Part shown: positions 3,892 through 37,399 of the stretch, piece by piece
How the letters are laid out: every line of letters starts with the position of its first letter
How positions within the stretch are numbered: the first letter of the stretch is position 1
Virus record (IMG/VR): IMGVR_UViG_3300035698_021780
Span: 1 to 39,551 of that record
From: a virus
Length of the DNA stretch: 39,551 nt
Direction: 5' to 3' (one strand)
Translations under genes and position numbers: made by a program
Notes under the pieces: generated by a model
What the model was told of the DNA's origin: nothing
What the model saw: only the letters and a program-made list of their open reading frames with translations
Database searches by the model: none

Positions 3892-5109
3892 ATGAAACAG
3901 ATAAAAATATTCTTATCAGTTTTAATTTTATGCAGTATGGCTGTTTTGGCTTATGCCGTTGATGAGATAAAATTCACAAACAACGCAACCTCATTGGTGG
4001 CTGATGTTGGTGGAATAACGAATGTGGCTACCTCTCTGACCGTTACAACCGGTGAAGGCGCTTTGTTCCCAGTGCTTACCGGATCAGATTATTTCATGGT
4101 TACATTAGTGGATTCGAGTAATAACCGTGAAATTGTACAGTGTACAGCAAGGACCGGAGACACACTTACGATTGTTCGTGCCCAAGAGAGTACCGCTGCG
4201 AGAGCTTTTTCAGAGGACGATATAGTCTCTCACAGAGCGACAGCAGGGGCTTATGAGTATTTCCGTGACAATGTTGACACTGGTGCTGTTGATACCGCAC
4301 AGCTGGTTGATGATGCCGTTACGCTGGCAAAGATGGACGCCGGTACAGACGGGAACCTTATTACATATGATGCTGCTGGTGATCCTGCTGCGGTTGTGAC
4401 TGGAACCGCTGATCAGGTCCTCACTTCAAATGGTGCAGGCGCCGCGCCTACTTTCCAAGACGTCCAGGCTATTCCGGACAATGCCGTTACCCTTGCTAAA
4501 ATGGCTGCTGGTACGGATGGAAACCTTATCACCTATGATGCGGCCGGCGATCCGGCTGCGGTCGCTACCGGTACTGCAGGTCAAATCCTTATCTCAAGTG
4601 GTGCCGGGGCAGCTCCGGTGTTTTCTTCTATCCCAGTGCCTACCGGATGTATTATGGCATGGCCCACAAGCTCTGCCCCTACTGGATGGCTTGAATGTAA
4701 TGGTACGGCAATTTCAAGAACTACATACGCCGCGCTATTCGCTGTTGTAAGTACAACTTACGGTGTTGGTGATGGTTCAACCACTTTCAATCCCCCTGAT
4801 TTACGAGGCCGGTTTTTGAGAGGATGGGACCATGGAGCTGGTACAGATCCTGATGCGGCAAGTCGTACCGATAGAGGGGATGGAACCGGTGGAGACAATA
4901 TCGGGTCAAAACAGGCTGATGAATATGAGTCCCATACACATACGCTTACAAATGGAGCAAGTGTGTGGAGAAATACTGGCGGTTCAAACACTATGACTGG
5001 AGGGGGGGCGTCTACGGTTGCAACTCTATCAAATGCTAATTCTGGTGGAAGTACTGAAACACGGCCTGTTAATATAAATATGATGTGGATAGTCAAAACA
5101 GGCAACTAA
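3892..5109 (+). CDS. Phage tail-collar fibre protein with N-terminal signal peptide
   Basis: This 405-residue protein has four parts. Residues 1-22 are a Sec signal peptide ending AYA. Residues 27-124 are one copy of a repeat domain found three more times in the next gene. Residues 141-246 hold two copies of a roughly 50-residue VTLAKMxAGTDGNLITYDAAGDPAAV repeat typical of fibre shafts. Residues 247-405 are a phage tail-collar domain, with the GCIMAWP start, the PTGWLECNG motif, the PPDLRGRFLRG signature and the HTH segment. Collar domains sit at the tips of tail fibres and contact the host surface. The family call is solid; the signal peptide is unusual for a tail fibre. Confidence 0.88.
   Translation: MKQIKIFLSVLILCSMAVLAYAVDEIKFTNNATSLVADVGGITNVATSLTVTTGEGALFPVLTGSDYFMVTLVDSSNNREIVQCTARTGDTLTIVRAQESTAARAFSEDDIVSHRATAGAYEYFRDNVDTGAVDTAQLVDDAVTLAKMDAGTDGNLITYDAAGDPAAVVTGTADQVLTSNGAGAAPTFQDVQAIPDNAVTLAKMAAGTDGNLITYDAAGDPAAVATGTAGQILISSGAGAAPVFSSIPVPTGCIMAWPTSSAPTGWLECNGTAISRTTYAALFAVVSTTYGVGDGSTTFNPPDLRGRFLRGWDHGAGTDPDAASRTDRGDGTGGDNIGSKQADEYESHTHTLTNGASVWRNTGGSNTMTGGGASTVATLSNANSGGSTETRPVNINMMWIVKTGN
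3970..4263 (+). repeat. Single copy of the FSNNATS...EIV..TAR fibre repeat
   Basis: Codons 27-124 of the collar fibre encode the same roughly 98-residue domain that occurs three times in the downstream gene. Shared landmarks are NNATSL, TGxGALFP, YFMVTLVDSSNNREIV and TARxxDTLTI. This points to duplication and exchange between neighbouring fibre genes. Confidence 0.85.
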
Positions 5110-27003: not shown

Positions 27004-28131
27004 ATGATTGAAAATTATATTTTAGGAACTGATGAGTTTGGATCATTACCAAAATACAAATGCCATAAGATTGTAGCCGGATTTCAGATTGACTCTGTTA
27101 TGATAAATGATGAAGAACCTGAGAACGGTGGCCTGTTCCTATGTTTCATGGAGAATGAAATGAAGAATGTTTTATTTGTCGATCAGGAATACATTAATAA
27201 ACACGGGCCAAAGGTCGGCGGGTATTATGTTCTTTATAAAGATGGTTATGAATCATATTCACCAGCCAAACCTTTTGAAGATGGGTACACCAGGGTCTAT
27301 CCAAACGATTTTTTTGATCGTTGGCTCAAATGTCCTTTGCCCGATTTCATGCAACCTTCTTACACCTGCCCCCTTGACGAAAAGCCTGAAAGTATCCATG
27401 ACACGAACGGCCTTGCCGATCCACAGCATGGCAGGCTTGGCCCGAGGATTAAGGGCAAAGAGGTAAATACTGATGCGGTGAAAGATAAAATAGATGAATG
27501 GGCTGAGGCTGCTGGTAAAACCTTTGGGGAAGCATGGGACAAGATATTTTTAGATACCTATAAAAAGCTTACCGAAAAGGGCAGCGATTTTGATATCTGG
27601 AAAGATGGATTGTCTAACCCTGGCCAAACAGAGTGGGACAGGATGGAGCCGAATAAGGTTGAGCTTCCCACATCGCTCTTAAATAAAACCTGCCCAAGAT
27701 GCGGATCTAATCCAGGTGGAATTGGAGGGCTATCCTTGTCAATCCGTGGAGGCAAAAACAGCGCTGGCAAAATACCGGTAGCGGTTCATTGCCTTGGATG
27801 TGGGCTCGAAGGCCCAACTGTTAGGATTAGATACTCAGATAAAACAGAGGGACCGTGGAATGCATTTTATAAAAGGTTTAAGAAAAGCTATTATCCAACC
27901 CCAGACACTTCAATCCGAAAGGGTGGTGGCCCTCCGATTGGAATAAAGACCAGAAAGTTACATGATGAAGAACGAGCGCTTTTGATCGTGGAGGCCATGG
28001 CCAGGAAGATTAAGATAGGTGGTCGTGTGCCAGATGCATGGAGATTTGAGCTTGATGATCTTCTGGACCAGTTTGACACTGAACTGGAACTTAGCCAAAC
28101 TGGGGAAAACATCTTCGATGAACAAAATTGA
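27004..28131 (+). CDS. Unknown protein with Lar-like zinc ribbon
   Basis: This 375-residue protein starts behind AAAGGAGG. The first 115 residues include GPKVGGYYVLYKDGYESYSPAKPFEDGYTR, a pattern seen in short phage proteins of unknown function. Residues around 230-265 hold CPRCGSN and CLGCGLEGP, the layout of Lar-type restriction-alleviation ribbons. The C-terminal 90 residues are helical. It may be a fusion of two small phage modules. The Lar link is a guess from cysteine spacing. Confidence 0.55.
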   Translation: MIENYILGTDEFGSLPKYKCHKIVAGFQIDSVMINDEEPENGGLFLCFMENEMKNVLFVDQEYINKHGPKVGGYYVLYKDGYESYSPAKPFEDGYTRVYPNDFFDRWLKCPLPDFMQPSYTCPLDEKPESIHDTNGLADPQHGRLGPRIKGKEVNTDAVKDKIDEWAEAAGKTFGEAWDKIFLDTYKKLTEKGSDFDIWKDGLSNPGQTEWDRMEPNKVELPTSLLNKTCPRCGSNPGGIGGLSLSIRGGKNSAGKIPVAVHCLGCGLEGPTVRIRYSDKTEGPWNAFYKRFKKSYYPTPDTSIRKGGGPPIGIKTRKLHDEERALLIVEAMARKIKIGGRVPDAWRFELDDLLDQFDTELELSQTGENIFDEQN

Positions 28132-34671: not shown

Positions 34672-34761
34672 ATGAAACAACCAAGCACAAAAGATTTAAT
34701 AAATGTAATTATCAGAGGTTTGAAACAAATGATTAGTTTATTGGAGGAATTATTACAATGA
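34672..34761 (+). CDS. 29-residue helical peptide
   Basis: A short frame behind AGGAAAG encodes one amphipathic helix (DLINVIIRGLKQMISLLEELL). Its stop overlaps the next ATG, and its final codons provide GGAGG for that gene. It may be a leader peptide coupling translation. Confidence 0.4.
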   Translation: MKQPSTKDLINVIIRGLKQMISLLEELLQ

Positions 34762-35069
34762 CAGTCATATATAATGACGTTTTAGAGCGTTGTGATATAT
34801 TGAATGAATTAATTATGTTAGACCTTAAAAGCTATCCTCTGTGGCATGTTGCCAAATTACTTAAAAAAATCAAGGTTATTGATAATCCGGATGATTTCGG
34901 TTGGTTGTTAATTGGCCTATTTGTTAATCCGGAAGCTAAGCGCCCTGATAAACATTTCAGTATTGCAATTGATATTTATATTTTACTTAAATATTCATAT
35001 AAAAGGAAAAGGCTTGTTGGTAGAATGTTGTATTTTCTTAAAAGAGCATACAAAAAAGATAGCGAGTAA
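34758..35069 (+). CDS. Unknown 103-residue protein
   Basis: It starts behind TTGGAGG. It is helical and basic near the end (YSYKRKRLVGRMLYFLKRAYKK). It is AT-rich compared with its neighbours, which suggests recent acquisition. Function is unknown. Confidence 0.6.
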   Translation: MTVIYNDVLERCDILNELIMLDLKSYPLWHVAKLLKKIKVIDNPDDFGWLLIGLFVNPEAKRPDKHFSIAIDIYILLKYSYKRKRLVGRMLYFLKRAYKKDSE

Positions 35070-35314
35070 ATAAAAGACCCCACTCATTGACGCGCTGAAA
35101 AGCCCCTCTTCGAGTGACGCCAAACGCGCTTTAGACTAAGCCCCTTTGGGATCAAATAGTAATTGTGAATACCTTCTGCAAAAAGGCTCACAGTTATTAG
35201 GATCTCAAATGGGCTTTTTTATTATATACCGTCTGCTAAGAATACCATTTTGCAAATGGCTCTACAGACAAAACTCAAATGGGAATACCTTACGGCTCCC
35301 AGGGAGGTAGTAAC
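35070..35314 (+). ncRNA. Structured non-coding region upstream of the scaffold gene
   Basis: About 245 bases without a convincing gene. It contains the direct repeats ACGCGCT (35090, 35124) and AAGCCCCT (35100, 35138), a long hairpin at 35138-35216 and three copies of a GAATACC...GGCTC hairpin motif (35167-35189, 35240-35262, 35283-35298). Base pairing is kept through G-U wobbles. A structured RNA or multi-part leader is likely. No known RNA family is recognised. Confidence 0.5.
35138..35220 (+). terminator. Long two-part hairpin followed by a U-tract
   Basis: AAGCCCCTTTGGGATC (35138-35153) pairs with GATCTCAAATGGGCTT (35201-35216), with one mismatch and one G-U. Inside, TAGTAATTGTGA pairs with TCACAGTTATTA across 12 positions including two G-U pairs. 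TTTTTT closes it at 35215-35220. It is much longer than an ordinary intrinsic terminator. Confidence 0.65.
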
Positions 35315-36370
35315 ATGGCAATACCAGAGCAGGTTCAGGCTGCGTCAGACAGCGCGGATAAATTAATCTCGGAACAGGCAGCGGCGATAACGCAGCCCCC
35401 GGGAGAAGTTGATCCAGCTGCGGCGCAAGACACGGATCTCATCAAACCGGAACACACGGACACAGTTGAATCATTGACAGCGAAAGTAGATAACTTGACA
35501 CAACAGCTGGTCGTGCTCCAGGGAAAGTACAATGCAGAAATAGAGGCACTTGGCAATGATCCTAAGATACTCAATACCCAAAAGGCTGAGATCAGAGGAT
35601 TAACTCGCCAGGTGAACGATCTCAACAAGATTGTAAGTGATCAGCAAGATCAGATTGCAAGGGCTTCAGTTGCAACGCCTGCAGTCAGTGAAGAGAAAAA
35701 GGAAGTCGCAGTTGTTTCAGTATCAGATGAAGACCTCGCGCATCTTAGTAACGAGGGCTTTACCGGTGAAACAATGGATGTTTTCAAAAGACTTGTTCGG
35801 ACTGAGGCAGAAGCGATTGCTAAAGCGCAACCGGGTTCAATCCCTGAATCTCTTGAAAAAAGGGTTGAATCCATTGAGAAAATTGCCGTTGGTACTGAAA
35901 ATGAACGATTTTTTCAGGCGCTTACACAGGCTGTTCCTAATTGGAGGGCCATAAACAAAACGGTCGAGGATCCGAACAATGACTGGCTTGATTGGCTTGA
36001 CGGTGTTGCAGCAAAAGGCCCTTATGAATCTGGCCCAGATCAAATTCGTGCAGATATCCTGCATGAAGCACAGAAGAATCTAAATGCTATTGTAGCGATA
36101 AAGATTTTTCAAGATTACATATCGGAAAAGGGGATAAAACCCATTGACCCGATTGTTGATGATCCCTTAAAAATAATACCGGCTGATTTAATTGAACCAG
36201 AAGCGAACTCTTCAGGAGGAGCCCCTCCTGAGAAGCCGACTTACACAATGTCCGAGTATAAAGAACATGCTATTGCGCTTACAAAAGGTCACTGGAAAGG
36301 CAGAGAGGCAGAGTGGAAAGAAAGATCTGTTCTACTCGATGCTGCTTATGCAGAGGGCCGAATACTTTAA
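35315..36370 (+). CDS. Putative head scaffolding protein
   Basis: The ATG at 35315 behind AGGGAGG gives 351 residues; an upstream in-frame ATG at 35279 lies inside a hairpin and has no ribosome site. Residues about 50-118 form a long coiled coil (VESLTAKVDNLTQQLVVLQG...LTRQVNDLNKIV). The protein is acidic overall with a Gly/Pro linker near 305. Coiled, acidic proteins just before the capsid gene are typically scaffolds that guide capsid assembly. Confidence 0.72.
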   Translation: MAIPEQVQAASDSADKLISEQAAAITQPPGEVDPAAAQDTDLIKPEHTDTVESLTAKVDNLTQQLVVLQGKYNAEIEALGNDPKILNTQKAEIRGLTRQVNDLNKIVSDQQDQIARASVATPAVSEEKKEVAVVSVSDEDLAHLSNEGFTGETMDVFKRLVRTEAEAIAKAQPGSIPESLEKRVESIEKIAVGTENERFFQALTQAVPNWRAINKTVEDPNNDWLDWLDGVAAKGPYESGPDQIRADILHEAQKNLNAIVAIKIFQDYISEKGIKPIDPIVDDPLKIIPADLIEPEANSSGGAPPEKPTYTMSEYKEHAIALTKGHWKGREAEWKERSVLLDAAYAEGRIL

Positions 36371-36472: not shown

Positions 36473-37399
36473 ATGTCTGCTGTAACTCCTGTTGCAAGTG
36501 GGATAACCTCTCATAGCGGCACATATACACCTGAAATCTGGTCAGCTAAAACCTTAATCAAGTTTTATACCGCGACCGTATTCGGTGCGATTACCAATAC
36601 TGATTATGAAGGCGAAATCAAGGCTATGGGCGATTCTGTCCATATCCGTACTGTTGCGGATATCACAATCCGCGATTATTCAATAGGTCAGAAATTGACC
36701 AGGGAGCGTCCTTCAACTGCAAAAATCACCCTTTTGATTAATGAAGCCAAGTATTACTCTGTATCCGTAAACGATGTTGAGAAGCTTCAGAGTGATATCA
36801 ATTATGTCGAAAGGTGGTCAGATGATGCAGGCCGGCGAATGGCTATCAAAATAGATGAATCCATTCTGGAAGATGTCTATGCAGATGCCAACGCTTCAAA
36901 TAAAGGCAATTCCGCTGGTTATAAATCGGAAAGCTTTGCCCTGGGTGCCTCTGGTACTCCGGTTGTCGTAGACAAGGATAATATCCTTGATTACATCGTT
37001 GACATGGGGACCGTCCAGGATGAAATTGACACTCCTGATGATGGTAAACGTTGGATTGTCTTTCCTCCTGCGTTTTGTGGCCTTATTAAAAAGGGCGATC
37101 TCAAAGACGCGAGTCTTACCGGTGACGGGACTTCTATCGCGCGTAATGGCCGAATAGGAATGATCGACAGGTACGAAATCTACAGATCAAACCAGTTGGC
37201 ATTGACCACAGACGGTGGGAATTCAATCACAAACTGCATTTTCGGACACCCCACAGCTATCACATTCGCAAGCCAGCTTACGGAAAACCGGTACATCGAT
37301 AATCCGGATGATTTTGGCAAGTTGATGGAAGGTCTTCAGGTTTTTGGTAAAAAAGTTATAAAAGCAGAAGGCTTGGGTCACTTTTACGCAAGGAAATAA
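36473..37399 (+). CDS. Major capsid protein candidate
   Basis: This 308-residue protein starts behind AAAGGAG. It has features of HK97-fold coat proteins: an N-terminal arm, an early IRTVADITIRDY stretch, a long helix (DAGRRMAIKIDESILEDVYADA), a WIVFPPAFCGLI core strand, and a C-terminal segment with the FGHPTAITFASQLTENRYI pattern. It follows the scaffold candidate and precedes a likely decoration protein, the normal head order. The specific fold family cannot be told by eye. Confidence 0.78.
   Translation: MSAVTPVASGITSHSGTYTPEIWSAKTLIKFYTATVFGAITNTDYEGEIKAMGDSVHIRTVADITIRDYSIGQKLTRERPSTAKITLLINEAKYYSVSVNDVEKLQSDINYVERWSDDAGRRMAIKIDESILEDVYADANASNKGNSAGYKSESFALGASGTPVVVDKDNILDYIVDMGTVQDEIDTPDDGKRWIVFPPAFCGLIKKGDLKDASLTGDGTSIARNGRIGMIDRYEIYRSNQLALTTDGGNSITNCIFGHPTAITFASQLTENRYIDNPDDFGKLMEGLQVFGKKVIKAEGLGHFYARK

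Follow-up and report, generated by a model that had tools for sequence, protein, structure and literature searches.

We found that the leader of a phage scaffold gene, like those of many other phages, carries an RNA element that is real, strand-specific, covarying, present in multiple copies and confined to one gene family. It was found in a 39,551-nucleotide stretch of virus DNA (IMG/VR record IMGVR_UViG_3300035698_021780, positions 1 to 39,551), hereafter the window. On balance we favour the reading that the element controls translation of the scaffold gene as an operator with several sites, probably recognized by a phage morphogenesis protein, in the first place the scaffold itself.

The gene in question (35315–36370, plus strand) encodes a 351-aa scaffold protein of phrog_13678 (PHROGs, E 2e-11), a family listed without an assigned function. 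It lies directly before the major capsid protein gene (36473–37399, plus strand; phrog_267, E 4e-48), which was used to gather relatives, and occupies the position of the annotated scaffolding proteins in L257, L259, L260 and L262, four phages compared by position whose capsid proteins are related to that of the window. A 103-aa open reading frame just 5′ of the leader (34758–35069) had no family match. Two further features were seen 3′ of the scaffold gene in relatives: a group I intron shortly after it in L253 (3957–4240; Rfam RF00028, 81 bits) and, recognized by eye, an open reading frame resembling a LAGLIDADG homing endonuclease in L205 (3511–4092).

A pattern search of the window recovered GAATACC..GGCTC three times on the plus strand, at 35167, 35240 and 35283, as the earlier note had reported, and the looser pattern AATACC-N3..20-GGCT occurred 10 times against 1.24 expected from shuffles. 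A motif match in the window at 28076 lies inside coding sequence and was taken as chance. The pairing of CC with GG, the AATA facing CU and the closures UGUG/CACA and UGGG/CCCA of copies 1 and 3 could all be read in the sequence. The register of the loop had to be moved: relatives favour GA-AUAC / GC-UC over G-AATA / CU-C, so that the internal loop is best described as AUAC against GC, and the core form in the window becomes GUGA-AUAC-C..G-GC-UCAC. The 266-nt leader has a predicted fold of −76.1 kcal/mol (z = −4.5 against shuffles) and showed no direct DNA similarity to known phages in a DNA similarity search. Copy 1 (UGUGA-AUAC-CUUCUGCAAAAAG-GC-UCACA, 35164–35192) sits, in the leader fold, at the tip of the long stem that had been described at 35138–35216, and this stem together with a T run (35215–35220) spans 35138–35220 on the plus strand. 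Copy 2 (AGA-AUAC-CAUUUUGCAAAUG-GC-UCU, 35237–35265) has an extra outer stem, GUCUG/CAGAC (35231–35235 with 35265–35269). Copy 3 (UGGGA-AUAC-CUUACG-GC-UCCCA, 35280–35301) ends immediately before the Shine-Dalgarno sequence of the scaffold gene, GGGAGG (35302–35307, plus strand), and so adjoins the ribosome site as noted earlier. The span originally given to the element, 35070–35314, was too wide, since 35070–35137 falls outside it. Covariance model R1 matched the window in exactly these three places, all on the plus strand, with 26.3 bits (E 2.9e-5) and 21.5 bits (E 8e-4) for copies 1 and 2, which were in its seed along with the relatives, and with 17.4 bits (E 0.015) for copy 3, which was not. 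A possible weak copy inside the gene (CUCA-AUAC-CCAAAAG-GC-UGAG, 35570–35590, plus strand) was found by the descriptor and missed by the model. The start codon itself might be covered by one more weak copy, formed by the start region (35315–35345, AUGGCAAUACC..GGCUGC), and the scaffold start of L241 could do the same with an outer stem of 5 bp; this copy may merely reflect the peptide MAIP.

The search in relatives covered 80 loci collected by capsid protein alone, followed by loci collected by scaffold, by other capsid proteins and from bacterial genomes; the shape recurs around the scaffold start with different stems. The consensus consists of an outer stem, A-N-A-C, an inner hairpin closed by C-G, R-C and the other strand of the outer stem. 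Its core is an asymmetric 4x2 internal loop, which is conserved while the terminal loops are free. In L010 we found the copies UGAUCGGA-AUAC-CAAUUG-GC-UCCGGUCA and UUUGA-AUAC-CGCUUCGGCG-GC-UCAAA, of which the second continues directly into AGGAGG. The stem of the motif in L067 has 12 bp, and L213 has four tandem copies. Copies may be tandem or nested, one motif serving by eye as the inner hairpin of another in the leaders of L106 and L438, and also occur within the first ~100 nt of coding sequence. The loop has lineage variants: Pseudomonas and Halomonas-type prophages have ACCC/GC, Pelagibacter and Roseobacter phages have CUAC/CA and CUAC/CC, and a marine group has AYAC/GA. Carriers include prophages of gammaproteobacteria, betaproteobacteria and Desulfo- lineages, with Pseudomonas, Salinicola, Halomonas and Marinomonas among the cultured hosts, and three isolates, Pelagibacter phage HTVC115P, Aeromonas phage MQM1 and Roseobacter phage CRP-603, whose variants were recognized by eye. 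In members of the marine class such as L021, L074 and L078 another hairpin, GGCGGCAAAG..CUCGCCGUC, is conserved where the upstream gene ends, before the scaffold start.

The association with scaffold leaders was quantified in 84 non-redundant relatives, most of them picked by capsid protein, taking the 300 nt 5′ of the scaffold gene as the leader. A fixed descriptor gave 34 sense-strand matches in 26 kb of scaffold leaders against 13 in 645 kb elsewhere, and 20 on the reverse strand; this descriptor replaced a looser one allowing inner hairpins of up to 34 nt, in which noise swamped the enrichment. When the core was altered in 18 ways, 15 of the altered cores yielded 0–4 leader matches, and the other three were either kin variants, ANACC/GRA (17) and ANCCC/GRC (9), or the overlapping ACANC/GRC (11). 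With no loop named beforehand, the most over-represented 4x2 loops in the leaders were CUAC/CA, AUAC/GC, AGAC/GC, ACAC/GC and AUAC/AC. Furthermore, when cores were taken regardless of their flanks and hence free of selection by pairing, the flanks were paired in 49 of 282 leader cores, where 6.8 were expected and shuffles reached 16 at most, with no comparable excess elsewhere (73 against 55.7 expected) or on the reverse strand (54 against 39.5). Of the 72 matches that a 45-copy covariance model gave over 750 kb, 71 were on the sense strand. Motif matches are most frequent immediately before the start codon, with a density of 2.1 per kb over the final 100 nt, and carry on into the gene within its first 200 nt, with 0.6 per kb over its first 100 nt; the background is ~0.07.

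Covariation was examined in 33 Pelagibacter-type leaders selected solely by capsid protein. The pair type changes at five stem positions (A-U/G-C, U-A/A-U, U-A/C-G, G-C/U-A and C-G/A-U/G-C), and all 33 leaders are paired there. Seed alignment A1 shows like covariation with numbers that are biased, the alignment having been partly selected by pairing; the flank-pairing test and the Pelagibacter leaders are the fairer tests. The proposal that this is a selected RNA, with a repeated shape and changing stems, was therefore supported, since in relatives the loop recurs at the same gene on stems that covary.

When all viral contigs were scanned blind with GGGAATACCG-N3..7-CGGCTCCC, 23 stretches matched, 19 of which lie at scaffold-like genes, corresponding to roughly ten independent phages as several contigs are near-identical. 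By placement, 17 of the 23 lie 57–102 nt inside genes, two in scaffold leaders and four elsewhere. The genes holding the 17 have ends resembling the scaffold family, and that of L438 was confirmed as phrog_13678. The peptides encoded by intragenic copies vary with the stem (GNT..AP with GGG/CCC, ENT..AL with GAG/CUC). A scrambled core of the same composition gave no match over the viral contigs. Two other patterns were set aside: the core of the earlier note plus CAG was too degenerate and gave mostly chance matches, and a 16-base TGA..TCA-type pattern was mostly chance; of its matches with a plausible ribosome-binding site (RBS), those in L490, L492 and L504 precede scaffold-like proteins and are accompanied by further copies.

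The distribution of the element tracks the family of the scaffold, not that of the capsid protein. phrog_13678 was present in every motif carrier tested, and leaders of phages with a related capsid protein and a scaffold of phrog_4708, 2592 or 172 were without the motif. The element is common in relatives with this scaffold family, but it is not universal, L390, L391 and L012 having no clear copy. The loop ends 13–24 nt 5′ of the start codon in nearly 40 loci, and the last leader copy overlaps or abuts the scaffold RBS, the position expected of an operator; in the marine class ACGC-AYAC-C..G-GA-GCGU the Shine-Dalgarno sequence GGAG is itself the 3′ strand of the motif. Copies within one phage agree in the 5′ loop (78% against 30% expected), the 3′ loop (78% against 52%) and the closing pair (100% against 59%), while their stems differ; in this comparison the related pairs L010/L011 and L035/L071 were counted separately, so that the p-values come out a little too low. 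Among 12 carrier phages searched whole, the only common proteins found were portal, scaffold and capsid, by a loose six-frame search that missed the W02 and W04 scaffolds, which PHROGs found.

Because the loop varies by lineage and agrees within one phage, and the stems do not, the pattern suggests recognition of the loop by a protein, as if all copies of one phage were read by one phage-specific candidate binder. Each copy, a hairpin interrupted by an asymmetric loop (ANAC against RC), would offer one recognition surface, and the protein would read this internal loop. Since the final copy of the leader adjoins or includes the Shine-Dalgarno sequence, binding would block the ribosome there, repression being suggested by position, and the other copies in the leader and early coding sequence would raise occupancy. 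Free scaffold left unused by coat would in this way shut off its own synthesis. The scaffold is the likeliest predicted binder because it is one of only three proteins found common to the 12 phages, with portal and capsid, and because the element is associated with its family; the other two proteins and host factors are further candidates. The scaffolds are acidic, with no recognizable RNA-binding domain, which counts against this reading.

A search of whole records gave one strong match outside the scaffold gene and so revealed a second target. In L421 the sequence CGGA-ACAC-CGGGAAACCG-GC-UCCG (4554–4579) stands directly before the Shine-Dalgarno sequence of the gene for the terminase small subunit (terS; Terminase_2, E 2e-32), and L423, a related phage in a Burkholderiales bin, has the same arrangement of motif and terS RBS. 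Because of these terS copies the binder would not be tied to scaffold mRNA alone. Apart from this one, the extra matches on bacterial chromosomes were in genes or not significant for the genome size, and were rejected.

The same operator might instead be read by the capsid or another phage protein, such as the portal or an early regulator, and in some phages also control terS. The copies at the terS RBS in L421 and L423 are compatible with this, and capsid and portal are as universal as scaffold among carriers, but the motif is missing where a related capsid is joined to a different scaffold family, and we consider such a reader unlikely. Still less probable is a site for a host protein (a ribosomal protein, or a factor in RNA processing or stability) through which the scaffold mRNA would be protected, processed or regulated. 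Hairpins can stabilize mRNA ends, the host range is wide (gamma- and betaproteobacteria and Desulfo- lineages), and a loose six-frame comparison of 12 genomes is compatible with a host reader; however, a conserved factor would not explain a loop that varies by lineage (AUAC/GC, ACCC/GC, CUAC/CA, AYAC/GA), and 20 host assemblies yielded no convincing host-gene site.

Readings without a protein fare worse. A small-molecule riboswitch with tandem aptamers would account for a compact conserved internal loop in tandem copies beside an RBS, but the gene encodes a capsid scaffold and has no part in metabolism, the core varies by lineage and copies are also nested and placed in coding sequence, which makes it a very unlikely explanation. 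Transcription termination or attenuation, with the motif stabilizing or breaking a terminator stem, comes to mind for copy 1 in the window, which forms the tip of a long stem with six T behind it; because of this T run, that stem looks like an intrinsic terminator too. It fits the usual description of a GC-rich stem with a U tract, whereas copies 2 and 3 do not, and it was not listed by the consensus terminator scan, which took loops of 3–8 only. Nearly all copies elsewhere also have no T run, and copies sit 3′ of separate terminators, canonical ones lying just upstream of the array in L014, L018, L067 and L071, so that for the element as a whole we regard this function as highly improbable. 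Chance repeats or ordinary hairpins, which a short motif with a degenerate core does produce as frequent single matches in large collections, are excluded by the altered-core controls and further contradicted by the pairing test, strand bias, covariation, blind scan and scrambled control; this explanation hardly deserves credence.

The preferred reading, an operator bound by a phage morphogenesis protein, was then compared with known systems. Rfam 15 gave no match in the window at the gathering cut-off, in agreement with the earlier statement that no known family is recognized; with a relaxed E-value the leader gave only two weak minus-strand matches, and 11 relatives gave only tRNA and the group I intron. 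We found no published description of the element, although subscription journals were largely uncovered and absence there is weak evidence. The proposed mode of action, in which an operator lies at a structural gene's RBS, has precedents. In the single-stranded RNA phages MS2, PP7 and Qbeta the coat protein reads an RBS hairpin and represses translation; theirs is a single hairpin, contacted through a bulged A and the terminal loop, whereas here a 4x2 internal loop occurs in tandem and nested copies in tailed DNA phages. Scaffold of phage P22 (gene 8) outside procapsids reportedly turns down its own synthesis post-transcriptionally; the gene and its position in the window fit such feedback, but the P22 scaffold is of a different family, and no RNA operator hairpin of such a kind is known to us in that phage. 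Tandem guanidine-II (mini-ykkC) RNAs also place two or more hairpins before an RBS, but they conserve ACGR terminal loops, whereas the present element conserves the internal loop and leaves the terminal loops free; copy 3 has the loop UUAC, copies 1 and 2 are without ACGR, and no Rfam match was obtained. The C-loop (RNA 3D Motif Atlas group IL_73276.1), another asymmetric internal loop, counts its closing base pairs as part of the motif (PMC3854523); the likeness is one of general shape, and we claim no identity. C-loops are defined in 3D by specific non-Watson-Crick pairs and triples. Some structured RNA candidates from the human microbiome lie near phage genes, and the text of that study makes no mention of capsid or scaffold protein genes (PMC8040213).

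Scaffold–coat balance in tailed phages is a classic question. Genetic work has shown that a scaffold gene can be autoregulated; to our knowledge, no RNA target has been defined for this, and both the RNA class and its arrays in tailed phages are new. More tentatively, at somewhat less than even confidence, the element may represent a new and widespread class of operator, arrayed in tandem and nested copies over leader and early coding sequence and read by the scaffold as an RNA-binding repressor specific for sequence and shape, coupling assembly to the scaffold's own translation and, in some phages, to packaging through terS. Collectively, these data provide a compact candidate operator, open to testing, in many proteobacterial phages and prophages, and tie an RNA element to phrog_13678, so far listed without an assigned function. 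Should a phage partner come to light, this short hairpin might also be put to use as an RNA–protein tag.
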